This document shows, piece after piece, positions 23,901 through 58,898 of a stretch of DNA of 64,000 bases (position 1 is the first letter of the stretch; the number at the start of each line of letters is the position of its first letter). The stretch lies in IMG/VR virus record IMGVR_UViG_3300032053_000034, positions 17,376 through 81,375 of that record; one strand, given 5' to 3'. Both the position numbers and the translations under genes were made by a program. The stretch comes from a virus. Below the pieces are notes generated by a model. That model did not search any database. It had not been told where the DNA came from and worked only from the letters and a program-made list of their open reading frames with translations.

Positions 23901-26900
23901 AGTGATAGATGAAAAAACTAATAAACCAAGACCTTTAAAAATACACACTGGAGAAAAACCATATTCTGAAGTAATTGTCCCGGTTAAGGATGCAGATTTC
24001 TACGGTCTTAAAATTGGTGATGAAATTCCAGAAGATATAATGCGCGCACTTGGAGTGAGGATTCCTACAGAATCTGCACACTCTGTTATTCCAATGAGAG
24101 TTGTTGCTTTGTTACCACCATATATGGGCTCTCAAATAATTGTGCCAAGTGAGTTTGTTCTTTATTCAGGGATGGATTTTGATATTGATGCGCTATATGT
24201 GAACATGACTGACTATGATAAAGAGTATACTCCAGAGGGTATTCTGTTTAATAAAGTTCAGTATGATAGGGGGCACAGTGGGATTAATGATGCAAGTCTA
24301 TTTATAGATTATGCTATTGAAATGCTTGAGAATGCTGGTATTAAAAACGCAAAAGAATATTACAACTCAGAAGTGCTTAAAACTGGATCTTTCAGTTTAA
24401 TGAATAACCCAACAGCCAAAAGAACTATTATGCAAGTTACTGGTCTGGGTGATGAAAGAAAGTACCCAGCAACATTTGCAGAATGGAAAGCAATGAAGAA
24501 TAAGGTAATATCATCAAGAGGGCTTAAGAATAAGCAACTTGACTTAAGACTTTCTTCATTTAATTCCATAACAAAAGATGGCACTAATCCTCAAATGGAA
24601 GCCGCCATTAAACCTGCGGATGTTGATGGCCTTACTTCTATTGGTAAACAGATTGCAAGGTTTATGGGAACTAGATTATTGTCTGGTTTAAATAATACTG
24701 TAACAGATACTTACCAACAACAGAAAGCTCAGAGAACAGGTAAGCCACTCATTGATGTGGCTATTGCTCAGGTTACAGGATTATCAATTGCATTGTCTTA
24801 CAGTAATAGTTTAACTCCTTCACAGGTGGCTAATATTGAATATGCCCCTGGGAAAAGAATCCCTACAAATGGAAAGACTATTTATGACCTTAAAATGGAT
24901 GCTGATAGTAATGGCAATATAGTATTCTATGGTAATGAATTAGGAGAAACTAGACTCAATGCTGGCTCTGCAGCTGCTGCAGCCATCCTTGATGATAGCA
25001 AGAATGCAACAAGCTTTAGTATGAATTACACCAAGAGAACATTGTCTGCTTCTTTTGGTGGATATTTACTTGGTATTGGGAGAATGATTACCGGGTTAAT
25101 GAATAATAACCCAATCATATTCTCTCTTGATTCACTTGATGATTCTGAGTTCAAAACTTATGAAGCTGACCTTGACTTTATAGCATTTGCCGCAGACACA
25201 CAACTTGGTAAGTTGTTGGTAAAAGGTGAAAATGGTGTAGAAAATCTGTATAAACTTTACAGGTCATATATGCCTATGGAGCAAAAAGCAATGATTGCTG
25301 ATCAAATAAAAGAAGCCAAAGATAAATTCCTAAGTAAGCCACTTAGCGCAGAGGCGGTGTATGCTTATATTGGGAATAACAACGGAAGAAATAACTTATC
25401 TTCTTATGGTTCTCCTTTAGATGTCCCTACATACACTCTTTCTCCAGAAGAGTTTAATGAGAGATATAATAAGCAAAAAGCTGGCTTACTTGTAAATAAT
25501 GTAGATTCTAATTTCGCAAAGAACCAATTACACATTCTTGATAACTTTAAAAAGCTTGAAAAACTTGGCGGAAATTTAACTTCTATTCAACAGGCATATA
25601 CAGTTCCTTTGAAGGGTTTTGATCAGAATAAAATAATCAACTTTGACAGAATGATTGCCAAAATTCCAAATGAATTTGGAGCTAAAGAATATCTCACAAA
25701 AGATACCTCATTGATTTCTGCTGTTAAGACTTTCTCTTCTGATTTATTTGACATGATGTCAAAAACAATCTTAAGATCTTCTGCTCTGTTTGAGCATATT
25801 GGTGATAGTTTATTTACATATTTACCAGGGATTGATGAGATTGCTGCTAAAGAAAGAGTATCAGATATTGTTGCTGAATACTTTGTATCTGAGGGTGCTA
25901 AAAATCTTGGGCTATTTGATGTAGATTTTGTTTCTTCATTAGGCTCTGAGGTTAAAAATAGAAATCACAGAAACAGAGTTGCAAGTAATGTATCAGAATT
26001 ATCTGACCATGCAATAAAAAGACTTTCTGTTGATCAGTATCTTGCCAACATGCTAAACAAAGAGGTTGAGGTTGCTTCAATGTTATTTGGGTATACTGGC
26101 TTTTCAATAGATGGAGCTATTGCTACTATCAAGGCTCAATACAACCCTGTAATTGGAAACAAATTCCTAGGCAAGCTTAAGGCAAATAAAACTGGAGAGT
26201 TATTCACAATAGATTCTAGCAGGCTTCTTTCAACAGATAAGTTTGAAGTGTCAAATGATTTTGTAAATCTTCCAGATAAATTAAAGGCGCTTGTATTCTC
26301 TCAGGCATACTATGAAGGGTTTTCTTTTGGCCCAACAAAAGTATCTAGCTTTATGCCAGCACAGGAGCTTGCTTCTCCAGATGTTGTAAAGTTGTTTAAG
26401 GATATTGATGATGCTGTTTTAAATATTAATGACCCTGAGAATTTCTCTGGCAAACTAAAAAACTTCAATGAAGAATTAAACATTGATGACTTTGCTCACA
26501 TGGTATTTAAAAGGTCAAGATGGTTATTCAAAGAGGTTAAGCCAGAAGCTATAGATAAATTCAACTTGTCTGATGATCCTAAGAAAAAGTTCTCATACAA
26601 GTATGTGTATGCAAAGCTTAATGATGAGGCTGTTCTTTATAAATTGACTGATGGAGATCCTGCAAAAGTAAATCCTGTAGTTCCAAACTATGAGAAGTCA
26701 TTATCAAAAATTCATAAAGCTAAGATTGAAAAACAGTCTTCTGATATTGTGAAAACTGATAGCTTTGCAAGTATTGCAGGAAGTAGGGATGTTGATGATA
26801 TAGCATATTTGGCTAATGACAATATTATTGTTGTTCTTGGTGTTGGAGATGGTGTTAAGCAAGAGGCATTCTTCATAAGTAAACCTAAGGTTGGCGCAAA

Positions 26901-27651
26901 AGGAAGTAGTGCTATTGTATTTTCTCATAACACAGAATTATACTCATCTGATGTTGTTACTAATGCTGATAGAGGTATATTTGACATAAACTCTATATCA
27001 AATGTTAGTGATGAATTTATTGTCATAAACAATGTGTTCAATAATAACATGGAGATAGGTGCTGGTGAATTTGTTACTGGTGTTAGTAAGGATTTTACTG
27101 CAAGAGCATCAAACAGAAAAGCAGCATCTAGTGCAGCTCTAAGAAGAGCTTCATTTAATACCATAAGTGCTGTTGACATGAAGTTAATGAAAATGCTTAA
27201 TAATGGAACATTAATTTCTGGCTATAGCAAGCTTGGCGTAATCATGTCTGATATTAGTGAGTTAAGACCTAAATTCTTTCACTCTCTTGATGAAAATATA
27301 TCAAAAATTAATGACTACTTGTCAATGATTAAAAGTAAGATAGAGGTTATTGTCAATGAAGGATCTGGCATTTCAGAGGATATTCTTAATGATATTATTA
27401 CAGATGCTAGGGAAAGTGTTTTTGATGAGGAAAGAAATATTGAATACTACTCATCAAGAATGCTGGAAGGGGTAAATAGTGCAAGATCAGAAAGAGGTCA
27501 AGATTTATTAACCCAAGATCAATTAGATGAGTATATTGAAAGTGAGTATGGCGAAGTTGGATTTACCGATATGATGAAACATAAAGATGTTTTACTTGAT
27601 AATCCATCATCAAAAGAATATAAAGATTTAACCTCCCAAATAGGCTGCTAA
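14926..27651 (+). CDS. Giant virion RNA polymerase polyprotein with zincin domain
   Basis: This 4241-aa protein is by far the largest in the window. Residues about 65-200 contain Gly/Ala-rich hydrophobic stretches (FGINAVSSFIGNTAGVVAG; SAGYTAGGMASALTVG), as in ejected core proteins. A zincin-type metalloprotease motif HEAFH lies at 1658-1662 in VVYHEAFHAVLN, with a candidate third ligand in LEEYMADQFAEY (E1717/E1718). At 3083-3088 MDFDID supplies the DxDxD triad that binds catalytic Mg in the two-barrel RNA polymerases; the flanking PSEFVLYSG...ALYVNM matches crAss-like virion polymerases (phi14:2 gp66 type, related to YonO). The protein would travel in the capsid and transcribe early genes after entry. 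Fusion of protease and polymerase suggests processing, which is inference. It overlaps the next ORF at TAATGA. Confidence 0.85.
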   Translation: MSGKTKEQESKERMEAAKQADASYRPTLDEGTSVSLEIDPDQNKLNAHETDDMRQQRLFDEQSTGEALLIGAENFGINAVSSFIGNTAGVVAGVHNAMTSGDATMNPLSEENIDEFINNPINKYLAEFSENFNKDNPVYSDPGNSTLFDDVASAKFFSDVIGSAGYTAGGMASALTVGKLGSAARQGLLKSAVTGSTKEFDEFLKSGIADPLIRENVKKAVINNTFKGATSLTGAAMGRAYESSIEASQAGKEASARMAESLKDRKDLSTEEKSRMTEQAKNSAQVTSFSLNMMLGYSDMTQSAKMFNTFGDGVENVSKWWKEGLNQFIQEGGEEYAQNRIQKIAVDNEFTSGTSNKILKSFSTLVEGVGDREAQLAALSGGLSGAPMGIYAGAKNYDKQQKIELENKELYAKLSSQLKPNEKIQLDKNLKYAELEEQKNNGRVVLSALNNLGQVSEEQSSVKIPNSEHTLGSLKELSIEDTVKYAYESEKLKKELEISIRSASNAQLSETVFAAIDSGNLENLKLELEAISKSSNEEISKVIGEEVTNDNKDKKLKAMSAKIDKAEKIYNSIKNNIAGASPQQQREAGMIATNLEFLSTMRMKELHSNPSSLDLSTIGIDTTLAEFQDKFNEDFLAIKDRNTFSRKDIEDSEEGSPLAAFKKRVENNPNKETFRDNVKIALEQDELSKKSFMANVIKAVDKHFGPGKQKEKAEEVATYTANLYIHDKLTKEINNQRVEYQKSMNALVWNKQKAAQEKKDAAQVKSIKKDIAKQPKTVDEILEDYSLSEAPSEVKTPRLAAAFETFFNLNKDRTNSFGVNFETKGILSAVIDDIAKAYKESAGDNSMTGSILLQKVIEKANLVDGNNYWKTQISPESTVAAEAMLSTLGDRQQRLANPKPSDGIGVTPMDLYIYAEQNKNNRNSVLGAVEKAENATYVEVKNARERLVRLRNKISKKVIISEKGLVWKDGQYVPAVISGSYPISPSQLITQDVKDRYVQEINEALRGLKNIESPEVIDEQAIKAVQFVIETFDAHPGTVDNPKPDQDEIKLAIAEYENMLLTGKKSAGAGDFFFEKIDGQKKEVSKISLPVYRDGNTGVSKDLYFDKADPMVALVYVKDDKKHTLSFNRTKYYTSPDKGQSITSPEMDSLLVLFKDTNAIALADAMDLSVARNFKYNYANESLGNQTKTLAELPGKFFVGGVPTVTAGTIVQNDGNVIFVNPIAPLIGSNGKTYNIPVQSTQLDISTVKELSKLVAGVTGHSQINRLRAIVESIYVKGLTTENMNGDILEQLKNAAFVGQMVSQFVNKNSKGFRYDVAILSAVNEMAAENPDFFVSQESGNKLIKQLENDVTQATDQIQEQLNKTFFNPFIKKEYINEMIKEAYGKVKTQIDEIFPNLEGVHLGINVAQEKDSDNATAKLVVIPYSLDKNRTFLEGEGEQETSNIQYYSSTIDGQKWIQAEYFLDATVGDPTSKKVTGLEAEGGDVVSGDTILSYLNKNGMLRNAVFLNVEASQNPSRDMIANAVSKVMSPVDINSPIAGKLRGKIKVKSDFNQPVDSAIATGEVDKEKSPEQSAAEEDLEDLLSSMMKVDTGSNKLRDKKNLSKARRWVSRNLPAGITMKDFDGFTQRAYSQKGVLGQYIDNMILLSNEAGGSVVYHEAFHAVLNALIPQAERSHFLAIAEDEIGPIKQVDLSEFRSQHESRKNLSFERLKDLYLEEYMADQFAEYKMTNDAKPWWKQLWDGIIEWLGFAKVSGSQIKNLFYKIDTGQFAKSSIISSNSNALLFKVINKDDGSQIPVSESDDIIKGFASYFQYTKGLTSKTASSFFKPENRDAIRESLVEFLDAHEEVFESAKQKRNSLPDTAAFDINVFNDLTSRASTIENIDTSSVNGIIDLMIKEKSSIFDITSVDINPIDEINEAEKATLNDFDASAGEFSITPETIAVKRLFSNMPIEDSVMKSGLNSLDISDNAKKLINNNILFARFNNGDAMYAQAMSTLSDSSTFEEYLSKLDAMVSYPEWTSIKDKIRKVNGEPTNFAHLLRKATNYYYVDSSFVKEGAKTSVSTTGLGSRALTSATIDIQQKINGGLSVQKLIDSVGNIGKILPLMRSGSPKASESFNNNRKTLSNNIRNIGITIDPGLISFLAASYTNNEVLDEKNNIIDALERYITSITSKYAEDPESITGKKVVSQITILPGIKKPFEDLVKITARYNTAAPLVSIDRFAGKSIWNYVRNNHIVSRAKAINNANDISDLTDTKATIAYAPYLRDVDLLKQGNKNEDVTGSIDKDRVSLHVFRGSEKEDGNDLAFKEMSPADILEAQINMFFHAGGTKRFFMPYVIERKNTQYVYGVESPYITLDDFGTASSTLFEDTSSEDSDFDYKVSNTTIDIYYQMFMANIDQAIENKDNKEEFYTYRNELQNIIKYLEPFKEDFIKDKDKAHKMYESNIRGVINTNLRKAFSDFFVMLQDEGIVRINNQTKPSAGENNPIPRYLPTEVTSLNEMTSFDKKGNHKEAIKDYLSFFLESMIANQSLDHITMGDDRQWNEYNTKRSAEDNSAAAKINKSKRMAGAAASYSGMDMYGQYKYSFGKKIKMSESEQMSFTALKISDTFSYVKGAETFKDVSGNMEFTGPNPEDKKAVAAFKAFQDKMSAEGYSEVAITDGQAYQDINRLRNWMISDNKIRNEKDEKLIDKIAMDNEELSKPDWEYILKNTNVHLNSIKDIYYDGDTYLKESTTLLLRQITSVKETAGIIKDSLEAMYAKSGNLQREFNFNGRDYVKDSANGHWYYSAPKEFMGAILDTRKLHERLNQMQRMGATHMFHESCEKHKMSKPGGVFVLSNDKHGKQQETPSGHDHVVDGTQLQSLIMAAISDTDMIDGKSAKHTKAEILAAQVAIREISFDKVFSDILLKSKNKEDKLNIRKLYAKIKQANLSTGKDVIAQLFDKVGDEYVPKSMNIVSRSLRDSIISIINNKVLKQSVFGDKFYCVSAYGFEVIDEKTNKPRPLKIHTGEKPYSEVIVPVKDADFYGLKIGDEIPEDIMRALGVRIPTESAHSVIPMRVVALLPPYMGSQIIVPSEFVLYSGMDFDIDALYVNMTDYDKEYTPEGILFNKVQYDRGHSGINDASLFIDYAIEMLENAGIKNAKEYYNSEVLKTGSFSLMNNPTAKRTIMQVTGLGDERKYPATFAEWKAMKNKVISSRGLKNKQLDLRLSSFNSITKDGTNPQMEAAIKPADVDGLTSIGKQIARFMGTRLLSGLNNTVTDTYQQQKAQRTGKPLIDVAIAQVTGLSIALSYSNSLTPSQVANIEYAPGKRIPTNGKTIYDLKMDADSNGNIVFYGNELGETRLNAGSAAAAAILDDSKNATSFSMNYTKRTLSASFGGYLLGIGRMITGLMNNNPIIFSLDSLDDSEFKTYEADLDFIAFAADTQLGKLLVKGENGVENLYKLYRSYMPMEQKAMIADQIKEAKDKFLSKPLSAEAVYAYIGNNNGRNNLSSYGSPLDVPTYTLSPEEFNERYNKQKAGLLVNNVDSNFAKNQLHILDNFKKLEKLGGNLTSIQQAYTVPLKGFDQNKIINFDRMIAKIPNEFGAKEYLTKDTSLISAVKTFSSDLFDMMSKTILRSSALFEHIGDSLFTYLPGIDEIAAKERVSDIVAEYFVSEGAKNLGLFDVDFVSSLGSEVKNRNHRNRVASNVSELSDHAIKRLSVDQYLANMLNKEVEVASMLFGYTGFSIDGAIATIKAQYNPVIGNKFLGKLKANKTGELFTIDSSRLLSTDKFEVSNDFVNLPDKLKALVFSQAYYEGFSFGPTKVSSFMPAQELASPDVVKLFKDIDDAVLNINDPENFSGKLKNFNEELNIDDFAHMVFKRSRWLFKEVKPEAIDKFNLSDDPKKKFSYKYVYAKLNDEAVLYKLTDGDPAKVNPVVPNYEKSLSKIHKAKIEKQSSDIVKTDSFASIAGSRDVDDIAYLANDNIIVVLGVGDGVKQEAFFISKPKVGAKGSSAIVFSHNTELYSSDVVTNADRGIFDINSISNVSDEFIVINNVFNNNMEIGAGEFVTGVSKDFTARASNRKAASSAALRRASFNTISAVDMKLMKMLNNGTLISGYSKLGVIMSDISELRPKFFHSLDENISKINDYLSMIKSKIEVIVNEGSGISEDILNDIITDARESVFDEERNIEYYSSRMLEGVNSARSERGQDLLTQDQLDEYIESEYGEVGFTDMMKHKDVLLDNPSSKEYKDLTSQIGC

Positions 27652-30600
27652 TGAAATGTATAGTCAAAGATGATTTATTCCGTTTTGCAGAAGCAAATGG
27701 TTTAAACTCACCAGATATTTATCAAAAGATTCTTGATAAGTATGAGGGAGTTCCTGATAATGTAGCCATTGAGGATCTCCAGAAAAAAATAAATGATCCT
27801 ATACTGAAGAATACCCTCTTCAGTATAGACTCATATATTGATAGCATTGTAAATACTAACAACCTAATTGAAGATAGTATTGAGTCATCAATATTAAAAA
27901 TACTTCCAGGTGATAATGTAGCAACTGCTTCTGCCCAAGGTATTGTAACCAAGAGTAGAAACAGTAATTCTATTGATGGCAAAACTACATTCTTTGCAAC
28001 AAAAGGTATTCCACTAAACATTCAATCTATTATTAAAATTAAGAATGGTCAAAAAACACTTACACTTAGAGACCCAAAAAAGAGTCATTATGGCTCTGAC
28101 CTTGTACAGCATATTAGTAATGGGATCATGGGTAATGGTGTTGGGACCAATTTTACAGCAAGATTTAAGTCCCCTCTTGAGAAAGAGATTGTCACAAAAA
28201 GCGGTACAAGAAAAGTACCTGTGCCAATGAATTTAAGAGAGTATTTATTATGGAGAGCATCCGTAGGCAGGCCTACAAGTGCCAATGCTATTCTTAAAGA
28301 GTTTGTTGGTAAGGCTGGTTTAAGCGAGAGTGGTGACAAAATTAATGACTCTTCAATGGAGGATATTTATGAAGAGGATATTAAGGATTGGTTTAAATAT
28401 CCAGACTCTCAGGAAAACAAAAGAATCATATATGAAGTTGAAGATGTAACTGCAGTTATTACAGAAAAGATTCTTGAGCCAAAAGAGGTGGATGCACAGA
28501 TTAAGCAGGTGCAAGAAGAATATAAAGGAAGCACTGTGCACTATCAAATCCTTGGATATGACATTCCTGGCGGTGTTCCAGAAAATCATGTGATTGCTAT
28601 TATGGAATCTTTAAAAGAGAGGTTTGGCATAGACTATGAAATTAACCCAAATCTTACTGATGAAATGGGAAATCCTTTACCTGGGATGATAAGTTATTCT
28701 GAAGGAGCTATTGGGAAAGTTTATATTAACCCAACTGTAGCAACTCTTGATACTCTGTTTCATGAGTATATTCACCCATTTGTAGATCTAATGGCTACAA
28801 ATAACCCTGCACTGTTTAATAGTTTGATTGAAGAAATTAAAACACTTTCAAATCCTCAATCAGAAAACCACAGTATTCATATGTCTAACATTGTTGATAG
28901 GGTAAAAAGAAACTATCCTAGCTATGTAAATGGTGAGGTGTTGAATATTAATGGATGGACAGAAGCGCTTGTACAGGCTCTTGGTGAGGAATCCCAAGAT
29001 GCATTCTTGGATACCAAGGAGGTAAATGAAGTTGGGCAGATTGTAAATACTGGTGATGTAAATACGCGCTTTAGAAGATTGTGTAGAGATTTTTGGGACA
29101 TGGTAAGCGCTGTGATTGACTTAATCACAACACCTTATGGCTATATGAAAAGTCTTTATGGCAACACAGAAAAGAGCATTGTAGTATCTGAGTTGCCGGT
29201 AATGACAATTAAGCAAATTGGGACCATTATTGGTGGGCTTGATAATAAAGTAAATATTATTGGAGTTGAATCACTAACAATTCCTGAAGCTGAAAAAACT
29301 AAAATTCAAATAATTGTAAATACAATTAATCAATCTCTTACTACAGTAATTGCTAGCTATAGAGCCAAAGAGAGAAGCGCAATTATGGGTGGTGGTGTTC
29401 AATCCTTGCAACATCTAAAGAGTGCGCTAATGTCAGCTGAGGCTGTCAAGGGAGCTGTTTCTTCTGTGTACTATGGCAACTCTCACTTTAAGGATATTGT
29501 AGATACATTTGAGAATAATTATAAAACAATGAATCTTAAGGATCAACTTGACTATTTAAGAGAAGTTGATATTATCATGAGAACTTTTGATCCACTCATG
29601 ACTATAGATCCAGATGTGTTTAATAAAATTGAGTTTGCTGGTAAAACAGAATTTATAAGAGCCTTGCTTTCTGTTCAAGATAAAATTGGAACAGTTAGCA
29701 GAATACTTAGAAGTAATGCACCAACAGCAATGAAGCAGTTTATTCATAACCACATGACTGCAGAAGAGCGCGCAAACTTTAATATTGATAAGGAACTTGG
29801 TAGTGGTGCAGACTTGAGTTTTCTTGAGTATGGATTGGGCTCTATGGCCTCTTCTCCTGACTTCATTATGGGCATAACTGATAGAATCAATACCCAAGCC
29901 TTACATGAGGATGGTGAGGAACTTTCTGCAGATATTGAAAGTTTTAGAGCTCTTATGAATGTGTTTTCTGACAAAGGAATTGACCCTATGTCTATACTTG
30001 CTGATGAGGATGAAAATGGAAAACAATTGCCATTTCTTGTTAGTCACATTGATAGAGCTTTCTATGACAAGAAGAATGAATTAAGTGATAAGCTTAAGGA
30101 TAATAATGGAGATAATAAGCAGTTTATTATTGCTGATACTCCAGAAGCCAAAGTATTTAACAAGCAACTAAAAGCTGATCAAGAGGAATATTTTAAATTT
30201 CTCAGGGAAAATACACACATAGATGAAAGTATAAATGTATCCATGAATATTGGAGGAGCCTACATTGATATTCCCCTTGATTCTTTTAGAGATACTGTTT
30301 TCTATTATGACCCTAATACTGGAAGTCTTCAGATTAGACCAGGATTTTCTGAGTCAGAAGTAAACAATATTATGGATGAATATTTCAATGGTAGAATTAA
30401 ATCCAAAGTGGATAATAATGGAAGATTTGCCGGAGTTACATATCCAATAATTCACAGAGAAGATGGGTCACAGGCATATATCTATGAGAACTTCTCTGTT
30501 AAAAGCAAATACACTGTTCCAAACCAAGATAAATGGCAGAACAAAAAGTTTGCTAAATTACATAGTGATCCACAGAAGCTAGAACTTTACAATAAGTATC

Positions 30601-32531
30601 AAGAGCTTCATGAGAAATATCTAAGCAAATTGCCATCAAGCATCTATGATAAAGATATGATGCCATTAATGAAGAAGGATGTTTCTTCTGCATTTTTTAG
30701 TTCTGAAGACAAAGCCGCTTTTATGGTGAATGGAACTAAGAATATGATTGAGGACTATGTTAGTAATATCTCTAAAAAGCAGATGATGATTAATGGGAAA
30801 CTTAATCCTGGTCTTCCATTAATGTTCTTGTCTAAGCCGTCTAAGAATAAACTAGAAAAGCTTGATGCTTTAAAAGAAAGATTAAGAATAGAAACAAACC
30901 CTGAAGAAATAGAAAAGATTACAAAAGTTATTGGCGAGCTAAATAATAAGATTGATTACTCAGAAATTGACTACTCATCTTTTGGCGACTCTTTCATCAA
31001 GTTTATGATGATGGCAAATAACTTTGAAGCAAAAGCCAAGATTGAATCTGCAATGATGGTAATGCAAAACCAGATACACAACAAAAAGGTATATGGCAAA
31101 ACACTTCTCAAGAATGAAGGTCTTATAACAACTGAAGGAGAGGAGAAGTATAAGTCAGCAGAAGATAGTAGGGTTGCCAAGAGGTTTGACGAATACTTGT
31201 ATGGAATATTTTATGGAGCAGCTCTATATGATGATTCCCCAGGTGCAGGTACTGTTGCAGAAACAGTAGTAAAAATTTCATCTATTACCGGGTTAGGATT
31301 AAATGCTAAGGCAGCAATTAATAACTCAATCATGGGTAATATAAATAATCTTACCGAAGCTTGTGGGGCTCTGTTTTATGGTAGAAGTGATTTGGCTAAA
31401 GCAAAAGCTGAATATACTGCGAACATATTTGATTTATTATCCACTGGTAGCGAGAGATGTGATTTGAAGATTCTTTTAGATAGTCTTGCAATATTTGAGC
31501 CTAATGGTTTAGATGGTAGATTTAAAGGAGTAAGCTCTAAAAGATTTAGTGATCTTTTAAAAACAGATTCATTATTCTTATTGGATAATACTGTTGAATA
31601 TGCAAATCAATCTCAAGTTATTATTGCAATGCTTGAGTCTCATAAGGTTGATGAATATGGCAGTGTTCTTTCTTATAATGACTATAAGAAGAAATATTCT
31701 GATGGAACAAAAGAGGACTTTAATGACCTTCCAACTCTTAGGTCTAAGATTACCATAGAGGATGGTAAAATGAAATATGATATTAGCAAGCTTGAACTTG
31801 AACTATGGAAACAAAGAACCAAAGGTGTTATTCAATTAATACATGGTAGATATAATATTGAAGATTCTGCATGGATTCAGAGATATTGGATTGGTAAAAT
31901 GCTTTTGCAATATAAGAGATGGCTTGGCGCCACTGTTGAAGAGAGATTCAAGAGAAAGTATTATGATGTAAGATTAAGAGAGGATATGGAGGGTAGGTAT
32001 AGAACATTTGGTAGATACTTGTTTCAAAAAGCACAACAAGCTATGGGGAAACAAGTAGAAGCAATGAGCTGGGATACCATGTCTGAAATGGAGAAAGGTA
32101 ATGTAATAAAATCTGCAACAGACATTATAATATATGCAGCATTAAGCACTTTGATTGGACTTGCTGGTGTTTTAATGAAAGGCGCTAAAGATGATGATGA
32201 CAAAAAGAAATATGCAGCAATAAACTTTGCAAAATATTATATGGGTAGAGCAAGACAAGAAGTAACTTCACTTGTAAATCCAGTAGAATTATACAATCTT
32301 GCGACAAATCCGTTTGCTTCTTCTAGGACTATCAAAGAGTATGGCGAAGCAATACATGCTCTTGGTGAAGCTGCAATTAGTGATGATGAAATTACTGTTA
32401 AGTCTGGTAAATATAAAGGTCAAAACAAGGCAGCAAAAGAAGTTATTGATGTTGCTCCAATATGGGGGCAGGTCAGATGGTTTGATAAACTATTTGACTA
32501 TGAAGCCAATTCTTACACAGGTAAAAGATAA
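27651..32531 (+). CDS. Giant cargo protein with zincin metalloprotease motif
   Basis: The 1626-aa protein is coupled to the polymerase gene by a one-base overlap. It has a HEYIH motif at 371-375 (TLFHEYIHPFVDLM) with a plausible third ligand E438 (NGWTEALVQAL), giving a gluzincin-like site. Long helical regions follow. Near the C-terminus a hydrophobic segment (IIIYAALSTLIGLAGVLM, about residues 1490-1510) is followed by KGAKDDDDKKK and an amphipathic tail, suggesting membrane interaction on ejection. Large multi-domain proteins with zincin domains next to the polymerase are typical of crAss-like phages. Whether it includes remaining polymerase parts cannot be judged by eye. Confidence 0.65.
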   Translation: MKCIVKDDLFRFAEANGLNSPDIYQKILDKYEGVPDNVAIEDLQKKINDPILKNTLFSIDSYIDSIVNTNNLIEDSIESSILKILPGDNVATASAQGIVTKSRNSNSIDGKTTFFATKGIPLNIQSIIKIKNGQKTLTLRDPKKSHYGSDLVQHISNGIMGNGVGTNFTARFKSPLEKEIVTKSGTRKVPVPMNLREYLLWRASVGRPTSANAILKEFVGKAGLSESGDKINDSSMEDIYEEDIKDWFKYPDSQENKRIIYEVEDVTAVITEKILEPKEVDAQIKQVQEEYKGSTVHYQILGYDIPGGVPENHVIAIMESLKERFGIDYEINPNLTDEMGNPLPGMISYSEGAIGKVYINPTVATLDTLFHEYIHPFVDLMATNNPALFNSLIEEIKTLSNPQSENHSIHMSNIVDRVKRNYPSYVNGEVLNINGWTEALVQALGEESQDAFLDTKEVNEVGQIVNTGDVNTRFRRLCRDFWDMVSAVIDLITTPYGYMKSLYGNTEKSIVVSELPVMTIKQIGTIIGGLDNKVNIIGVESLTIPEAEKTKIQIIVNTINQSLTTVIASYRAKERSAIMGGGVQSLQHLKSALMSAEAVKGAVSSVYYGNSHFKDIVDTFENNYKTMNLKDQLDYLREVDIIMRTFDPLMTIDPDVFNKIEFAGKTEFIRALLSVQDKIGTVSRILRSNAPTAMKQFIHNHMTAEERANFNIDKELGSGADLSFLEYGLGSMASSPDFIMGITDRINTQALHEDGEELSADIESFRALMNVFSDKGIDPMSILADEDENGKQLPFLVSHIDRAFYDKKNELSDKLKDNNGDNKQFIIADTPEAKVFNKQLKADQEEYFKFLRENTHIDESINVSMNIGGAYIDIPLDSFRDTVFYYDPNTGSLQIRPGFSESEVNNIMDEYFNGRIKSKVDNNGRFAGVTYPIIHREDGSQAYIYENFSVKSKYTVPNQDKWQNKKFAKLHSDPQKLELYNKYQELHEKYLSKLPSSIYDKDMMPLMKKDVSSAFFSSEDKAAFMVNGTKNMIEDYVSNISKKQMMINGKLNPGLPLMFLSKPSKNKLEKLDALKERLRIETNPEEIEKITKVIGELNNKIDYSEIDYSSFGDSFIKFMMMANNFEAKAKIESAMMVMQNQIHNKKVYGKTLLKNEGLITTEGEEKYKSAEDSRVAKRFDEYLYGIFYGAALYDDSPGAGTVAETVVKISSITGLGLNAKAAINNSIMGNINNLTEACGALFYGRSDLAKAKAEYTANIFDLLSTGSERCDLKILLDSLAIFEPNGLDGRFKGVSSKRFSDLLKTDSLFLLDNTVEYANQSQVIIAMLESHKVDEYGSVLSYNDYKKKYSDGTKEDFNDLPTLRSKITIEDGKMKYDISKLELELWKQRTKGVIQLIHGRYNIEDSAWIQRYWIGKMLLQYKRWLGATVEERFKRKYYDVRLREDMEGRYRTFGRYLFQKAQQAMGKQVEAMSWDTMSEMEKGNVIKSATDIIIYAALSTLIGLAGVLMKGAKDDDDKKKYAAINFAKYYMGRARQEVTSLVNPVELYNLATNPFASSRTIKEYGEAIHALGEAAISDDEITVKSGKYKGQNKAAKEVIDVAPIWGQVRWFDKLFDYEANSYTGKR

Positions 32532-44517: not shown

Positions 44518-44931
44518 TCAAAGTATAAAGCATTTAACTCCGCACTCTTTCTTATTAACCTCATAGCCAAGTGGTATCACAACCACATTATCCATATTGT
44601 CTCTTGAAAGGTAGCCATGTTCCTCCATTTCATCCAAGATAACTTGAGTTATATTATTATAATCAAATTCTCTCTTGGTATCCCTGATAAGATACATCCC
44701 AAGAAGAATAGGTTTAGAAGTAGCATTGGCTACCTCTAAAAACCTTGACTTTTGTATTGAGAACACCAAAGAAATGTTTCTTTCAAAAGCTGTTACATTC
44801 TTACTTGAAATTATATGTGTACCAGTCCAACGTTTACTATTTTTCTTTGATGGAATATTTATTCCTTGAATGTAAAAATTTGGATTTGCCAAATCTACAC
44901 TGAACAGATCTATTAATCTTTGGATTACCAT
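44518..44931 (-). CDS. RusA-like Holliday junction resolvase
   Basis: The 137-aa protein has the RusA layout: INIPSKKNSKRW near the N-terminus, then REFDYNNITQVILDEMEEHGYL and RDNMDNVVVIP. Compared with E. coli RusA, D70 is D90 and D91 is D111, while D72 is Asn92 and K76 is Gln96. This FDYxN..Q form is familiar in a phage subfamily, so activity is uncertain. RusA-type enzymes cut four-way junctions. It is followed by Gp157 and preceded by the ubiquitin-like cassette, whose last gene overlaps it by one base. Confidence 0.65.
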   Translation of the reverse strand: MVIQRLIDLFSVDLANPNFYIQGINIPSKKNSKRWTGTHIISSKNVTAFERNISLVFSIQKSRFLEVANATSKPILLGMYLIRDTKREFDYNNITQVILDEMEEHGYLSRDNMDNVVVIPLGYEVNKKECGVKCFIL

Positions 44932-45755
44932 TATAAATCAAATTCACTTAGTGGTACAAATCCCTCCCCTATACCAGTAACAACTTCTTTCCCTTGTTTA
45001 TTAAGAGGTAAAGACGGATTAATAGTTCTTAATACTCCTCTGGAATGAGATCCATAATTAACAAGTATTCCATTAATAAATCTTTGCTTAATCTCTTCAA
45101 TAATATTTTTTGGTATAGTATCAATTCTATGCCCATCTCTTTCCAGGCAAAATGTAGATTTCTGTCTGTATAACTGATCAATATTGTCTTTTGCTATTAT
45201 TGGAATGTTTTGGTTTTCTGCAATACTCCAGTAATATGAAAATTCACGTTGTGAAGGCTTAGTAATCCTAGTATAACTTGTCTTAGCCACATATACAATT
45301 CCTTCATTTGTGAAACTGCCAGTAGTAAGCATTTGATATATTATCCTTTTTGCTTCTGAAGCTCTTACAAACATATCAATATATGGATCACCACCTCTTG
45401 AAAAACATGTATATACATTTGCTCCAATAAAAGTAATTCCATATTGACTTAACCTTCCTGACATAGAATCTTCTCTTGAAGATTTCGCGTTTATCATTGC
45501 AAAAGGGATACTAGTCCCGGTGACCCTCATCCTTCCAATATTAGTAGTTTCAAGATCACTAATAAACATGTCTATATCACTTTCTGTTAAATTAATAAGG
45601 AGTTCTTCACTAGAATTAACCTCTTTTACAAACATGGCAATCATGTATAAATCTATAGCCGTAAGCCATACTTTCTTATAATCAACATGCTTTGATTCAT
45701 CAGGGTTAAAAACAATATTTTCACTACCCTTTAATATGTCTTGGAGGCTATACAT
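44931..45755 (-). CDS. Unknown protein coupled to E1-like gene
   Basis: The 274-aa product starts 8 nt inside the end of the ThiF-like gene, so the two are translated together. It contains a helix-rich first third (YKKVWLTAIDLYMIAMFVKEV) and a beta-rich middle (GRMRVTGTSIPFAMINAKSSRED; QYGITFIGANVYTCF). A basic C-terminal half ends GIGEGFVPLSEFDL. No motif of E3 ligases or proteases was found. Being the last gene of the E2-JAB-E1 operon, it may be a substrate adaptor or target-recognition subunit. That is speculation from position. Confidence 0.55.
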   Translation of the reverse strand: MYSLQDILKGSENIVFNPDESKHVDYKKVWLTAIDLYMIAMFVKEVNSSEELLINLTESDIDMFISDLETTNIGRMRVTGTSIPFAMINAKSSREDSMSGRLSQYGITFIGANVYTCFSRGGDPYIDMFVRASEAKRIIYQMLTTGSFTNEGIVYVAKTSYTRITKPSQREFSYYWSIAENQNIPIIAKDNIDQLYRQKSTFCLERDGHRIDTIPKNIIEEIKQRFINGILVNYGSHSRGVLRTINPSLPLNKQGKEVVTGIGEGFVPLSEFDL

Positions 45756-46458
45756 AAGTTTTGGCTATGTCTAATTGTTGCAAATTAACATAACAATGAA
45801 ATGGTACATCTAAGATAGTCATGCCATTAATCTTGTTGGAGATTAAATTGTTAATTGCTGCCATTCCAAGACTAGTAATCAATGTTGCATTGTGAGTGGT
45901 TGCCTTGGCATTACATGGTAATTCCTCAGCATCATCATCAGAAAACAATGATTTAGCATACTCATTTGCTTGAGCACCATTAGTAATAAGAAAGAATTCA
46001 GAATGTTGAGGCGAACTTCTAAAGTCAATAAAGAACCTATGCTTAGGAGTTGTTCCAGCAGCTTTATGTTCCATTTGCTTTTTAACCCAAAGCTCATAAT
46101 ACATCTTTCTGTACTTCATGCTATCTACTGCAGAAACAAAGCAATCACCAATATCTGCTGTAGTTGTTGGTACAAAATACCCAGCATGAGCTTGAGTTGA
46201 AACATCACTACCAGAGAATAGTTTAATATTGCTTGCTAGTGCAGTTGCTTTGTTTGCTGATAAATTATGTACACCACAGAACTGAGCTGATATATTTTGG
46301 ACCGAGTATAGGTCATTGTCCCATAACTCAAGCAGGTGTCCAATCCTGCTTAAATATAGGGACATCCATGATCCTATCATACCACATCCAATTACTTGTA
46401 TTTTGAGTTTACTTACGGACCACTCAAAAGCACTAAACCTTTTGTTTGCAGTACTCAT
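45748..46458 (-). CDS. ThiF/E1-like adenylyltransferase
   Basis: The 236-aa protein has a Rossmann nucleotide-binding start, KIQVIGCGMIGSWMSLYLSRIG (G24xG26xxG29). Asp47 and Asp49 follow in LWDNDLYSVQNISAQF, the ThiF/E1 'D.D.v...N...Q' signature, then Lys70 and a conserved-type Asp112 (SAVDSMKYR). A possible catalytic Cys182 lies in EELPCNAKATTHN, in the same place as the LPxC of PRTRC ThiF proteins. E1-like enzymes adenylate the C-terminus of a ubiquitin-like protein. The gene starts 5 nt after the JAB gene and overlaps the next by 8 nt. ATC precedes the ATG. The absence of the large E1 domains fits bacterial relatives. Confidence 0.85.
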   Translation of the reverse strand: MSTANKRFSAFEWSVSKLKIQVIGCGMIGSWMSLYLSRIGHLLELWDNDLYSVQNISAQFCGVHNLSANKATALASNIKLFSGSDVSTQAHAGYFVPTTTADIGDCFVSAVDSMKYRKMYYELWVKKQMEHKAAGTTPKHRFFIDFRSSPQHSEFFLITNGAQANEYAKSLFSDDDAEELPCNAKATTHNATLITSLGMAAINNLISNKINGMTILDVPFHCYVNLQQLDIAKTYV

Positions 46459-46463
46459 GATTT

Positions 46464-47390
46464 TTAATGTTTACGTCTATTTTCTCTTCTTTTTTCTCTG
46501 GATTCAGTCCACATTTTTACAGCACTATTACTACTGATTTTCTCATCTTTCTCATCAAAGATGTCATCAACTGGAGTGCCATTTTGAGTTGTTTCCACAA
46601 CACCAAAATCCTCGTCAAACTTTTCAGATCCATTATTAAATCCAATTTCACTTTGAACATAAGGTGCATTCCTGAATTTTCTTGAATTGGTTTCAAGATT
46701 TTCCCAGTCAGCCTCTCTTGTTCCTCCACGAAAAGAATCTGCCCTCACAGATACCTGAAAGTCATTTCCTTCTCTTGATGTAGAATCTCTAAAAAAGCTA
46801 GGCTTTGCTTTTGCCAGCTCCTTGAATCTTTCCTCACAGCAAATCATTTTTACAATTTCGCAATCATAAACTTTAATGAATTTCTGTTGTGAAATTACGT
46901 TTGCAGGAAGATTAGGGATATTTTCAAACATTTCAACAACATTTCCCTCAATTACTGTAGAAACCTTAGCCTTATAACTACCAGCACAGTTTACAATCAA
47001 TGACAGAAACTGAGGAAAGAAATCTGCATTCACATGAAGTACGCGAGAATCCTCTCCACTAAAGAAAGTGTCCATATTGTGATGAGAATGCATTAAACCC
47101 ATTGTCCACCCATTTTCTGAGACCTCAGGGTTCTCCATATAGATGTCAGGCATGTTTGTGTTAAAATCAAACTTAGTGAATCCAGAAGTCCCCAAATCCA
47201 TCAAATAGAAGCCATGAACTAGAAATGATAAATCTTCTGGTTTTGATAAGTCGCCATTTACAGAATAAAAGATAACTCCAGACCATTCAAGGCTTTTATA
47301 CTCTCTATGCATGAAATCAATATCATTAAGGACATTTGGAGAAATTACTACTTTAGGTTTACCAAAACCTGTATATTTTACTACTTCCAT
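46464..47390 (-). CDS. JAB/JAMM metallopeptidase (deubiquitinase-like)
   Basis: The 308-aa protein has the full JAMM signature: Glu35 in LEWSGVIFYS, then GLMHSHHNMDTFFSGED, which gives His101xHis103, seven residues, Ser111 and Asp114 (HxHx7SxxD). JAMM proteases remove or mature ubiquitin-like modifiers with a zinc ion. The N-terminal 150 residues form the catalytic domain; residues 200-308 are Arg/Asp/Glu/Asn-rich and likely disordered, with a basic tail (REKRRENRRKH). The start overlaps the stop of the E2-like gene by one base (TAATGG), so the two are coupled. Confidence 0.88.
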   Translation of the reverse strand: MEVVKYTGFGKPKVVISPNVLNDIDFMHREYKSLEWSGVIFYSVNGDLSKPEDLSFLVHGFYLMDLGTSGFTKFDFNTNMPDIYMENPEVSENGWTMGLMHSHHNMDTFFSGEDSRVLHVNADFFPQFLSLIVNCAGSYKAKVSTVIEGNVVEMFENIPNLPANVISQQKFIKVYDCEIVKMICCEERFKELAKAKPSFFRDSTSREGNDFQVSVRADSFRGGTREADWENLETNSRKFRNAPYVQSEIGFNNGSEKFDEDFGVVETTQNGTPVDDIFDEKDEKISSNSAVKMWTESREKRRENRRKH

Positions 47391-48451
47391 TACCTATTTT
47401 TATTTAGAAGGTGATTTAAAATTAACTTATCCGAAGTTGGATGTACTCTTTTGTAATTTTCAGTGTATCTAACAACCCTATCAGGACTTCCAAATATGTC
47501 CCTTATTTTTTCATTATAGATTTCAATAATAACCTCTTTAATAATGTTTACAGTAGTTGGGGTTGGGAAATCAACCAAAACTTCAGTAGCTCTTTTTGCT
47601 GGGTCTGTACTTAATACTGGAGGATGAATTACTATGGGTCTTTCTTCTCTTTTGAATTTTATGAATTTACCTGGAATAGTTCCATGTCTTAAAGTAATAA
47701 GATATGCATCATTATTGTCTTCATACACAAACTCATCTGCATATCCTTTTTCAGTATTATAAATACCAAGATGATGCTTACCTAATTTCTTAGCAAATTC
47801 AAACAGATAATCCTCAGAAACACATGGAGTAATTGGATTGGCTCCTTCAGCATAAGAGAAGTCTGGGAAATAACCAAGATCCATTATGATTCTTCCAGCC
47901 TCTTCTGATGTCAGTCTTGGTCTTGTTTGTGCTGCACCTCCCCTTACTGCAGTGCCTTGGGTAATATGTATAAATGGACTTGCTCCTTCACACCCCATAA
48001 ATATATCAATCATGTTTGCCATCAAAAAGAAGTCATCATAACTGAATATTCGATTTCCAGACCTATTCTTCATTAATGAAAGCTCAGAGTTTCCTAGACA
48101 GAAATCACCAAAGCCTTTATTTTCTCTACCTGATTGCAGATGAGAATGTCTATAATTGTTTTGATATTGTAATGCAGAGTATGAACCCACATCACCTTGT
48201 ATCCTTGTTATTGTAATCCCAGAATCTGCTCTTGCAGTAAAATTAAGCATAACATATAAATCAGTTATGTTAATTCTTTTTGTGTGGTCACTATTTAATA
48301 CAACTGTTTTGGTTGGAAAATGAATTAAAACTGATCGGCCTTGTAAGCAAACAAATTCTTCACCAAAATAAGCATTAAACGCTGATACCATTTCTCTTAC
48401 TTTTGGATTTATTGCCATTTGTATAAGTGATTTAAGCCGGTGTATTTCCAT
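47390..48451 (-). CDS. E2-like ubiquitin-conjugating protein
   Basis: The 353-aa protein has an N-terminal E2/RWD-like pattern: a helix (about 15-30), strands ending in VLIHFPTKTVVLN and INITDLYVMLNF, then ITITRIQGD, followed by RHSHLQS at 101-107 and GFGDFCLGNSEL with Cys118. An HxH or HPN followed some 14-16 residues later by a Cys in FCLG/ICL context is the E2 active-site arrangement. About 200 residues follow after it, with unknown fold, perhaps for substrate binding. The start at 48451 overlaps the previous gene by 20 nt; Met12 (48418) is an alternative. The coupling to JAB and E1 genes strongly supports the call. The fold is inferred, not tested. Confidence 0.7.
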   Translation of the reverse strand: MEIHRLKSLIQMAINPKVREMVSAFNAYFGEEFVCLQGRSVLIHFPTKTVVLNSDHTKRINITDLYVMLNFTARADSGITITRIQGDVGSYSALQYQNNYRHSHLQSGRENKGFGDFCLGNSELSLMKNRSGNRIFSYDDFFLMANMIDIFMGCEGASPFIHITQGTAVRGGAAQTRPRLTSEEAGRIIMDLGYFPDFSYAEGANPITPCVSEDYLFEFAKKLGKHHLGIYNTEKGYADEFVYEDNNDAYLITLRHGTIPGKFIKFKREERPIVIHPPVLSTDPAKRATEVLVDFPTPTTVNIIKEVIIEIYNEKIRDIFGSPDRVVRYTENYKRVHPTSDKLILNHLLNKNR

Positions 48452-49541
48452 TCATAATTTCCTCAAAGGTTCTAAATGGATTTACCGGTATTGCAGTGTT
48501 ATTTGGAACTTCATTAAATGGAACCATTTCAAGAGGATTTACAGGAGTTCTTCTTTCTCTATTAATCCTTTCAATTTCTTCTATTTCCCTTTCATCCTCA
48601 TCATCTGGATCCTCATAATCAACTTCCATTACAATGTCTTCATTACCATAGTCGTCAATATCATCAAGAGGAATTTCACCACCAGTAGAAGTGATGAAAA
48701 CACTTCCGGTTTGCTCCTGTAAAGGATTTGTTGATAGTAATGTTTCAGGATCTACAAATTCAAATTGGTCATTATTCCTTGGATTGCCTCTTCTTCTTCT
48801 TGGAGGAACTTCAGCTGTAATAGCACTTACAGTACCTCTTTCAGTGTTTGCTACATCTCCATTTTGAGTCATAATAACGCCAGATTGATTATCAATAATG
48901 ATTCCTTGTTCTCCCATAAAATGTGCTACATAATCACTAGGAGGTAATTCTTCATGTGGCCCAGGAACTGGTTGAGCTGGCTCAGAATTAATTAATCTTG
49001 CTGAACTTGATAATGCGCCCTCTATGTCTTGAAATGTCTGTAGAGGGGCAGGATTTGATATTCTTGGACTCCTTGTAATATTGTTTTGCCTAGTTGCCCT
49101 ATCAGATAATTCAGTATCAAGCTCTGCAAATGGTCTAAACCTATCTTGAATTGGAGTTTGACTTCCATTCAATAGTGGTTCACCATAGAATAATATTGGT
49201 GCTTCTTTGGCTAGAGTTCTAAATAAACCTTCACCTTTAACAACAGTGAATCCATCATTTTTTGCATCCTGAATCTCTTTAAACCTAAACTTCCAATAAT
49301 TTTCTCTTTCCTTTGTACTGGACTTAAGAAATTCTTTATGTTCTCTTAAGAGTCTTTTGATTCTTTTGTCATAAAGAATGGCTTCATTGCCAGACTTTAT
49401 CTCTCTCTTTTCAATGGCAATTACCCTTGACAAATCTTCTACAAGTTTTTTCCTAGTAGTTGTGTATGTCGGAGCTCCAATACCAAGATCTATGGCTAGA
49501 CATGCAAGCACATCATAGTCATAATTATTCAGGAGTACCAT
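48432..49541 (-). CDS. Unknown partner of ubiquitin-like cassette
   Basis: The 369-aa protein has a helical, basic N-terminal 110 residues (long Lys/Glu/Arg-rich helices), then a mostly disordered region rich in Pro, Asn and Glu, ending with a strongly acidic stretch (about 300-335) with DDIDDYGNEDIVMEVDYEDPDD. It overlaps the E2-like gene by 20 nt and the upstream gene by 17 nt. No zinc-ribbon or RING-type cysteines are present. The disordered acidic tail could be a substrate or scaffold. PRTRC operons also carry a protein of similar size next to E2, but similarity has not been shown. Confidence 0.55.
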   Translation of the reverse strand: MVLLNNYDYDVLACLAIDLGIGAPTYTTTRKKLVEDLSRVIAIEKREIKSGNEAILYDKRIKRLLREHKEFLKSSTKERENYWKFRFKEIQDAKNDGFTVVKGEGLFRTLAKEAPILFYGEPLLNGSQTPIQDRFRPFAELDTELSDRATRQNNITRSPRISNPAPLQTFQDIEGALSSSARLINSEPAQPVPGPHEELPPSDYVAHFMGEQGIIIDNQSGVIMTQNGDVANTERGTVSAITAEVPPRRRRGNPRNNDQFEFVDPETLLSTNPLQEQTGSVFITSTGGEIPLDDIDDYGNEDIVMEVDYEDPDDEDEREIEEIERINRERRTPVNPLEMVPFNEVPNNTAIPVNPFRTFEEIMNGNTPA

Positions 49542-49977
49542 CCTGAGAACCCATTAGGTCTTCAAAGTTCTTTCCAAAATCTTTTGGAAGATTATTTTGT
49601 CTTCCCATCCCAAATTGCTCAGGATCTAACCCTAGGCATTCCATTGGAATAAGTATAATACCAACCTCTGCTAGTGACCTTTGTGCTTTAAAATAAGATA
49701 TTGCTTCAAATGCTCCTCTTGCTGCTAGTGCTTCACCAACAGATGCAGATAATTTTTGCATTTCTGTAAGATCAGTTTTTGAGGTTAACACAAAATCATC
49801 GCCAATATTGGCATTGGTATTACTTTCGTTTACTTCAGATTTAGGAACTCTCTTTTTTAAAGATTCCTCAACCTCTACTTCAAGTTGTTCCCTGGTCTTA
49901 TTACCAACAACAATTTCTTCGCAATCCATAACTATAGCCATGAGTGCGTTTCTTGAAATTAGACTTAAAATATTCAT
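49525..49977 (-). CDS. Unknown protein in ubiquitin-like cassette
   Basis: The 150-aa protein starts with a hydrophobic helix (MNILSLISRNALMAIVMDCEEIVVG), which is short for a membrane segment. It has a Lys/Glu-rich centre, a helix (SVGEALAARGAFEAISYFKAQRS) and a C-terminal FGMGRQNNLPKDFGKNFEDLMG. It lies between the terminator of the 105-aa gene and the 369-aa gene. Unknown function. Confidence 0.5.
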   Translation of the reverse strand: MNILSLISRNALMAIVMDCEEIVVGNKTREQLEVEVEESLKKRVPKSEVNESNTNANIGDDFVLTSKTDLTEMQKLSASVGEALAARGAFEAISYFKAQRSLAEVGIILIPMECLGLDPEQFGMGRQNNLPKDFGKNFEDLMGSQDGTPE

Positions 49978-50000
49978 GCCTACTTAATTTAGTGGTAAAA

Positions 50001-50039
50001 CAAAAAAAAAACCTCTCCCTGATAACAAGAAGAGGGGTT
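50001..50039 (-). terminator. Rho-independent terminator after the 105-aa gene
   Basis: On the minus strand an 8-bp stem AACCCCTC / GAGAGGTT (50010-50017 and 50032-50039 on the plus strand, one T-G pair) is followed by nine Ts. It would end most transcripts of the 50053-50370 gene before the downstream cassette genes. Confidence 0.85.
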
Positions 50040-50052
50040 CTTTTAATTTAGA

Positions 50053-50370
50053 TTAAAGCAAAATTGCTCCTGACATTTGAGAAGGGCTCAAATATACAGT
50101 TAAGTCACCAAGAGGCAATACTTGCTCTGGAACCAATACTGAAAGAGGTGTTTTGGTTCTATTTGATTCTACAACAGTAATAGACATACCATCTTTAATT
50201 TGAGCAGCTCTCATTAAGTCTGCAGTAGTTCTGAACTCTCCTTCAAATACTGGAGGTGGCATACCTGGAGTTTGATTAGAAGAAACAATAGCAATTCTTC
50301 TTGATGTAGAGGGAATTACATTTGCAGAAGAACCTGTTTCATTATTTGAGTTTTCCGAATTTGGCAACAT
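50053..50370 (-). CDS. Small beta-grasp candidate (possible ubiquitin-like modifier)
   Basis: The 105-aa product has a disordered Asn/Ser-rich N-terminus (1-22). The strand/helix order after that is RRIAIVSS, VFEGEF, helix TTADLMRAAQ, MSITVVES, PLSVLV and DLTVYLS, ending SQMSGAILL. Strand-strand-helix-strand-strand-strand is the beta-grasp (ubiquitin) order. The C-terminus has one Gly near the end but no GG. It is next to the E1/E2/JAB genes and has its own strong terminator, so it could be made in excess, as a modifier would be. A structural prediction is needed; alternatives are a small virion or regulatory protein. The start is preceded by AAATC. Confidence 0.45.
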   Translation of the reverse strand: MLPNSENSNNETGSSANVIPSTSRRIAIVSSNQTPGMPPPVFEGEFRTTADLMRAAQIKDGMSITVVESNRTKTPLSVLVPEQVLPLGDLTVYLSPSQMSGAILL

Positions 50371-58799: not shown

Positions 58800-58828
58800 T
58801 ATTGATAATACCCTTGGGTCAGCCTTGT

Positions 58829-58898
58829 AAGGAGAGTGGGATTCGAACCCACAACCAAGGTGTCTTTATACCTCGCTCTACCCTTGAGCTATCTCCTT
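58829..58898 (-). tRNA. tRNA or tRNA-like RNA with atypical anticodon arm
   Basis: Minus-strand acceptor AAGGAGA / TCTCCTT (7 bp), D-arm GCTC-AAGGGTA-GAGC, T-arm GTGGG-TTCGAAT-CCCAC with the invariant T loop. Between the D-stem and T-stem are only 22 nt: GAGGT and ACCTT pair as a 5-bp stem and leave an 8-nt loop ATAAAGAC, with no base 26 and a 4-nt variable region. Total length is 70 nt, with no encoded CCA. With T as position 33 the anticodon would be AAA, which is unusual for bacteria. The identity is therefore left open. Confidence 0.75.

Follow-up and report, generated by a model that had tools for sequence, protein, structure and literature searches.

To our knowledge, the bacterial systems that unite an activating enzyme (E1), a conjugating enzyme (E2), a JAB peptidase, and a ubiquitin-like protein (UBL) have so far come from 2 kinds of operon, the plasmid type (PRTRC) and the defence type (CBASS, Bil, Bub). 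PRTRC plasmid cassettes run E-C(UBL)-F-B(E2)-A(JAB)-ThiF and occur on plasmids of Parabacteroides and Tunicatimonas. They correspond to operon type 6d (proteins C, B, A, and ThiF) of Iyer et al. 2006, who also described bacterial cassettes and the TAPI/JAB pairs of phage tails (PMC1779556). Here we describe a four-gene cassette in a virus. It lies in a stretch of 64,000 nucleotides (the window) that makes up most of the 81,375-base IMG/VR record IMGVR_UViG_3300032053_000034, and it is likely to be a phage-encoded, PRTRC-like system of ubiquitin-like conjugation. Gene content and order, conserved catalytic residues, a predicted beta-grasp fold, an SG motif, and a conserved hairpin are the observed basis of this reading; the enzymatic steps, the cleavage site, and the targets are inferred.

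The phage cassette is likened to PRTRC because its gene order matches and its E1 and JAB are homologous. In both, UBL, E2, JAB, and E1 are separate genes in the order C-(F)-B-A-ThiF, carried on mobile elements. In hhalign comparisons the phage E1 matches PRTRC_ThiF at 99.1% (P=1.6e-18) and the phage JAB matches PRTRC_A at 93.9%; the window proteins themselves reach TIGR03736 (E1) with E=3e-6, far below the curated cut-off, and TIGR03735 (JAB) with E=0.05 only. The active-site string FPNISSNGQVCLG of PRTRC_B is similar to HPHSSREGVMCLG in the phage family. Unlike its PRTRC counterpart, however, the phage UBL ends in SG plus an extension and has no detectable homology to PRTRC_C (hhalign, 0.2%); the phage cassette lies in a replication operon, and a scan of the cassette proteins gave no match to ParB or to PRTRC E or F. 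Judged by gene order, E1, and JAB, the PRTRC cassette is the closest relative of the phage cassette, which probably is related to it and works like it but is not filed as PRTRC.

A first-pass annotation of the window had named CBASS and Bil beside PRTRC as comparisons, and these two did not stand. Type II CBASS (Cap2/Cap3, 6A-MBL) resembles the phage cassette in its E1 Rossmann domain, E2 function, and JAB, but Cap2 has E2 fused to E1 and acts on a CD-NTase, whereas the phage encodes E1 and E2 separately, and PADLOC matched no CD-NTase or other CBASS gene in ten operon proteins. Bil (ISG15-like) and Bub, compared from PMC13373217 and general knowledge, have the complete UBL-E1-E2-JAMM logic; they are, however, bacterial (putative) immune operons, and the phage E2, JAB, and UBL have no PADLOC match. 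Since the partner genes are not among the ten operon proteins scanned, membership in CBASS or Bil is ruled out by gene content. The window E1 does match the PADLOC E1-E2 models. This, together with the fact that related E1/E2/JAB sets are host anti-phage systems (PMC13373217) and that PRTRC sits on the bacterial plasmids named above, would suit a role in counter-defence, with the cassette disturbing host CBASS, Bil, or PRTRC conjugation, the JAB stripping host UBL tags, and E1, E2, and UBL acting as decoys. Yet a JAB by itself would be enough for this, while all four genes are kept with conserved catalytic residues, and their setting is a core replication operon instead of a group of accessory genes. 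We regard counter-defence as very improbable.

Two other arrangements of UBL genes in phages bear comparison with the present one. In Lambda and T1 the UBL (TAPI) likewise adjoins a JAB (the JAB-NlpC protein TAPK), but this pair is without E1 and E2 and belongs to a tail operon (PMC1779556), whereas here a full cascade lies with replication genes. In Xanthomonas PhiXhv-15 and Erwinia Ep032, near-identical jumbo phages of ~227 kb, there is a possible second type of phage UBL cassette, composed of a 141-aa protein ending ASGG, an 892-aa protein with HPHMAVPSSQESHGSLCLG, HPH...CLG, and cysteine-rich (RING-like?) ends, and an E1. A tag already ending in GG would need no trimming, which fits the finding that no JAB was seen in this stretch.

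By sequence comparison, the cassette is not the peculiarity of one phage: it is conserved as a module in many Crassvirales as well as in Flavobacterium and environmental phages. JAB was found in 175 IMG/VR loci, of which 80 were kept, together with named phages, for counts of conservation and order with iterative profiles. The four genes run UBL-E2-JAB-E1 on one strand in 69/69 loci in which all of them could be placed, crAss001, other Asinivirinae, and Flavobacterium phages included; such a survey of gene order in other Crassvirales had been proposed in the first-pass annotation. The crAss001 products are gp79 (UBL), gp78 (E2), gp77 (JAB), and gp76 (E1). In these loci the median overlap is 62 nt between E2 and JAB and 4 nt between JAB and E1. 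With tblastn, the number of GenBank phage records matched by E1 ranges from 45 to 85 according to the query used; for JAB it is 74. Carriers include crAss001, DAC15/17, cr85, cr106, cr111, cr112, cr126, and cr128 (Steigviridae, Asinivirinae), as well as Flavobacterium FpV phages and Dulem and bajarodcaudo viruses; the capsid was matched in 132 records, yet many other Crassvirales gave no E1 match at the tblastn sensitivity used. Only two short contigs of metagenome-assembled genomes carried the JAB family in the genome collection, and the family therefore looks essentially viral.

The open reading frames (ORFs) named in the first-pass annotation are present where it had placed them, on the minus strand in the standard code, and the residues it had singled out in the E1, JAB, and E2 proteins were verified. 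In E1, the GxGxxG Rossmann site (GCGMIGS), the DxD (D47/D49), K70, D112, and the Cys of the E1/ThiF superfamily (C182) are all present, and C182, K70, and D112 are kept in 66/66 aligned homologues. The protein exceeds the cut-off of PF00899 (ThiF; 38.2 bits against 28.1), matches phrog_15670, and has profile matches to UBA5, MccB, Cap2, and ThiF. JAB bears a complete JAMM signature (E35, H101-S-H103, S111, D114), whose HxH..S..D site is found in 93/93 homologues; E35 is near-invariant, the one missing case among 12 aligned phages being DAC17, in which the annotated gene starts late. Matches of the window JAB to family profiles are weak, both to Prok-JAB (16.7 bits) and to PfuJAMM1/CSN5. When 11 other phages, and not the window, supply the profiles, JAB (E=2e-43), E1 (3e-33), and E2 (3e-13) are retrieved from the 332 window ORFs, and in alignments of 12 phages the JAMM residues, the E1 site, and the E2 HSH, C, and G are invariant or nearly so. 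The window genes are thus no chance resemblance, since E1 passes the Pfam ThiF cut-off, the leave-out profiles match, and the motif residues are kept in relatives. As a side observation, the GenBank start of the DAC17 JAB (L002:7608-8705) seems too late, an open frame from 7467 extending upstream.

GenBank labels these genes 'ThiF' or thiamine biosynthesis protein (E1) and 'metalloprotease'. The first of these names, an E1 that is single-domain and ThiF-like, and the existence of sulfur-carrier operons that likewise combine UBL, E1, and JAB (Iyer 2006, PMC1779556) raise the alternative of a sulfur carrier. Here, a ThiS/MoaD-like UBL would be trimmed by JAB and converted by E1 to the acyl-adenylate/thiocarboxylate, sulfur would pass to a nucleotide, cofactor, or tRNA, and the 353-aa protein would be the acceptor enzyme. 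However, the annotation of the neighbourhoods, in which dedicated sulfur-pathway models were not used, contains no rhodanese, SirA, or sulfur-metabolism gene, and the HPHx7CL active-site motif and the PRTRC-like order fit conjugation. A sulfur carrier thus appears distinctly unlikely.

Structure prediction and profile comparison indicate that the 105-aa protein is likely to be the modifier. Its AlphaFold2 (AF2) model has a mean predicted local distance difference test score (pLDDT) of 75, with about 85 in the core, and the element order E24-30 E41-44 H49-56 E62-68 E90-96; its Foldseek matches in the PDB are ubiquitin-like folds (DIX, ubiquitin, Caldiarchaeum ubiquitin, Citrobacter multi-ubiquitin). 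An hhalign comparison with the phage UBL family (P=6e-5, probability 64.5) gives an alignment that reaches the SG, and no such match was obtained for the 150-aa and 369-aa neighbours. Members of the family match Pfam DIX and OTU1_UBXL; a sequence search of the PDB with the UBL and E2 profiles gave chance matches only. In crAss001 gp79 and its relatives, the UBL is an N-terminal domain whose conserved core extends up to a K-[IVT]-[KR]-S-G motif. Some lineages have a single residue after the Gly (KVKSGE, EVKSGI, KVKSGI, KVTSGA) and others two to four (KIKSGKF, KNKSGNE, KVTSGLSQ, and QMSGAILL in the window, where SG is S100-G101 and is followed by AILL); in still others the extension is about 20 to 217 aa. 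An SG followed by 1-4 residues or by a longer extension, with a suitable protease adjoining, suggests a pro-modifier trimmed next to the Gly. The window UBL would thus be processed after S100-G101 by the neighbouring JAB, and its exposed C-terminal Gly would then be conjugated; the SG motif is conserved.

In L005:6929-7606 and its homologues, the post-SG part has a conserved YxxIKxxGLQ...FGKNFTQCKTxDL and a C-terminal SxxEIxxMF; by eye the crAss001-like extension looks SAP/HeH-like, with no Pfam match. In cr106_1 (L012:6426-7629), the UBL gene is interrupted directly behind SG by an HNH endonuclease gene; what remains is a UBL of 92 aa with the end KKIKSGKF and, further downstream, a detached piece. 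The idea that the 150-aa and 369-aa window proteins are a split-off C-terminal extension of the crAss UBL was dropped, being unsupported by hhalign or Pfam.

In the 353-aa protein, H102-S-H104 precedes C118, which lies within FCLG. H104, C118, and G120 are invariant in the alignments, and HxH..CxG is found in 78/83 homologues, 4 of the 5 exceptions being gene fragments. Ubc enzymes carry the active-site string HPNxxxxGxxCL. The loop sequences of distant cassettes, HPHSSREGVMCLG, HPHVSGDNKPCMG, and HPHLSNGVPCLG, are close both to that string and to the one in PRTRC_B, and where the window has HSH..CLG, relatives have HPHx7CL. In the six-frame ORFs of the fetched loci (575,000 aa in total), the pattern HP[HN]x6-7C[LMIV] has 10 occurrences, and 10/10 lie in the gene immediately 5' of JAB. 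The profile made from the HPH group matches UBE2W weakly (E about 1, two of three matches) at the active-site region. The AF2 model, built with 51 sequences, has pLDDT 78-98 over residues about 15-150 and runs H16-29 E34-37 E40-51 E59-74 E78-88 [HSH..C] H123-130 H138-153. Its element order is thus UBC-like: a helix, four strands, the active-site loop, and two helices, with the Cys after strand 4. A Foldseek search against viral models returned orthologues only.

Several results weigh against conjugation. No UBC fold was found for the E2 model in the PDB among the best 50 of 335 Foldseek matches; the protein matches none of the Pfam E2 families, PF14460 (Prok-E2_D) included, and in hhalign with PRTRC_B it reaches 0.8%, so homology is not detectable. 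Moreover, hmmsearch of the 332 window ORFs with the family profile missed the window UBL, KAG replaces KSG in seven homologues, and no E3-like or proteasome-like partner was seen. The beta-grasp candidate of the first-pass annotation is supported by AF2/Foldseek and hhalign but missed by hmmsearch. Among the tests that the annotation had named, E1 and the motif conservation held, whereas the E2 model has a UBC-like element order and no UBC match among the Foldseek results given above; of the family profiles it had proposed, PF00899 was passed, Prok-JAB was weakly matched, and the Pfam E2 families were not matched. The Foldseek, Pfam E2, and PRTRC_B results would also suit a cassette in which JAB, E1, and UBL are real and the 353-aa protein is not an E2, UBL being activated and attached by E1 alone or passed directly to the substrate. 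The UBC-like element order, the exact HPHx7CL in relatives with its weak UBE2W match, and the place of the protein at the E2 position of the PRTRC order argue otherwise, and we consider this version rather unlikely. The 353-aa protein is, with good probability, an E2.

In the window, a 10-pair hairpin with a T10 tail lies directly 3' of the UBL stop codon. An equivalent hairpin is present in 50/61 distinct UBL-E2 gaps; for gaps of 35-130 nt the count is 46/51, versus 12/75 in control gaps (other same-strand gaps within the same loci). With a terminator-like hairpin behind the UBL gene, more tag than enzyme is expected, if the terminator is leaky; from its position and conservation, then, the tag is probably made in excess.

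Together, these features fit the following model of conjugation. The UBL, produced in excess owing to the hairpin, would be trimmed by the JAB metalloprotease, which would remove the post-SG residues (AILL here; a domain of >100 aa in crAss001) to expose a C-terminal Gly. E1 would adenylate this Gly and carry the UBL as a thioester on Cys182, then hand it to Cys118 of E2, which would couple it to amino groups of target proteins; JAB could also take the UBL off its targets. The position inside a primase-helicase-RecT-RusA-Gam operon points to targets that belong to the replication/recombination machinery of either the phage or its host. The first-pass annotation had also thought of virion proteins, which is less supported, given an operon shared with replication and recombination genes on the strand opposite the structural genes.

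The run containing the cassette is tightly packed and ordered helicase, RecT-like protein, primase, UBL, 150 aa, 369 aa, E2, JAB, E1, 274 aa, RusA-like, Gp157/Gam-like (Table 1). It thus has a DnaG-type primase on one side of the cassette and RusA/Gp157 recombination genes on the other; structural genes are on the plus strand. The 369-aa gene and E2 overlap by 20 nt, E2 and JAB share 1 nt (TAATG), JAB and E1 are 5 nt apart, and E1 and the 274-aa gene overlap by 8 nt, in agreement with the coupling first described for E2, JAB, and E1.

Table 1. Features of the cassette region (window coordinates) and the candidate second cassette type
Feature	Position	Strand	Basis or remark
UBL (likely modifier), 105 aa, ending ...LTVYLSPSQMSGAILL	50053..50370	-	AF2, Foldseek, hhalign, position after primase
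Terminator-like hairpin, T10 tail, candidate attenuator	50012..50035	-	10 pairs, TTTTTTTTTT, directly after UBL gene
150-aa protein between UBL and E2, function unassigned	49525..49977	-	no Pfam/NCBIfam match of note
369-aa protein (V369), C-terminal half acidic/low-complexity, in place of PRTRC F	48432..49541	-	no IMG/VR relative
E2-like protein, 353 aa, H102-S-H104 ... C118-L-G	47390..48451	-	alignments, AF2, motif in family
JAMM/JAB isopeptidase candidate, 308 aa, E35, H101xH103, S111, D114	46464..47390	-	conserved residues, profiles
E1/ThiF-like activating enzyme, 236 aa, candidate catalytic Cys182	45748..46458	-	PF00899, profiles, conserved residues
274-aa protein after E1; crAss001-like gene in same place without detectable homology	44931..45755	-	ORF list, profile comparison
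Xanthomonas/Erwinia candidate second type of phage UBL cassette	L104:2817-6696 and L114:1817-5696

The major capsid protein shares 31-35% identity with the capsids of Crassvirales, and the earlier label 'crAss-like' is therefore right in a broad sense. A DNA-level search of GenBank phages gave no match and thus no near relative there; the capsid gene is identical in one IMG/VR contig. Scans with single proteins (window E2, V369, capsid) for close relatives gave zero or almost zero loci, and it was the alignment-based JAB scan that retrieved loci. Elsewhere in the window, the structural half contains ORFs of 4241 aa (14926-27651) and 1626 aa (27651-32531) without PHROG matches, perhaps giant virion proteins, and at 58827-58898 ARAGORN lists an unusual tRNA whose anticodon has four bases (aaag).

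The first-pass annotation had known of no description of such a cassette in Crassvirales. In agreement, searches that paired crAss or Crassvirales with ubiquitin, ThiF, or JAB returned no description of it in the searchable literature, subscription papers being outside their scope, and neither the crAss001 paper (PMC6235969) nor the 2021 analysis of crAss-like phages (PMC7886860) mentions it in its main text. The same E1-E2-JAB-UBL logic is, by these comparisons, a conserved part of the genome in some of the most abundant gut phages, so that some of the phages most common in the human gut may have a eukaryote-like protein-tagging pathway at work in them. Viruses would then join the carriers in the history of the ubiquitin system, and the phage cassette may offer a clue to the role of PRTRC. 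Whether a phage tags its own or host proteins in ubiquitin fashion is now directly testable, since cultured phages (crAss001, DAC15/17, FpV4) carry the genes under the labels 'thiamine biosynthesis' and 'metalloprotease'. More tentatively, the cassette could be a virus-specific system that Crassvirales and other phages keep in the core replication module: a pro-UBL with an SG-extension would be cut by the JAMM protease of the cassette itself and then conjugated to replication and recombination proteins. If true, it would be a phage counterpart of the eukaryotic control of DNA replication by SUMO and ubiquitin.

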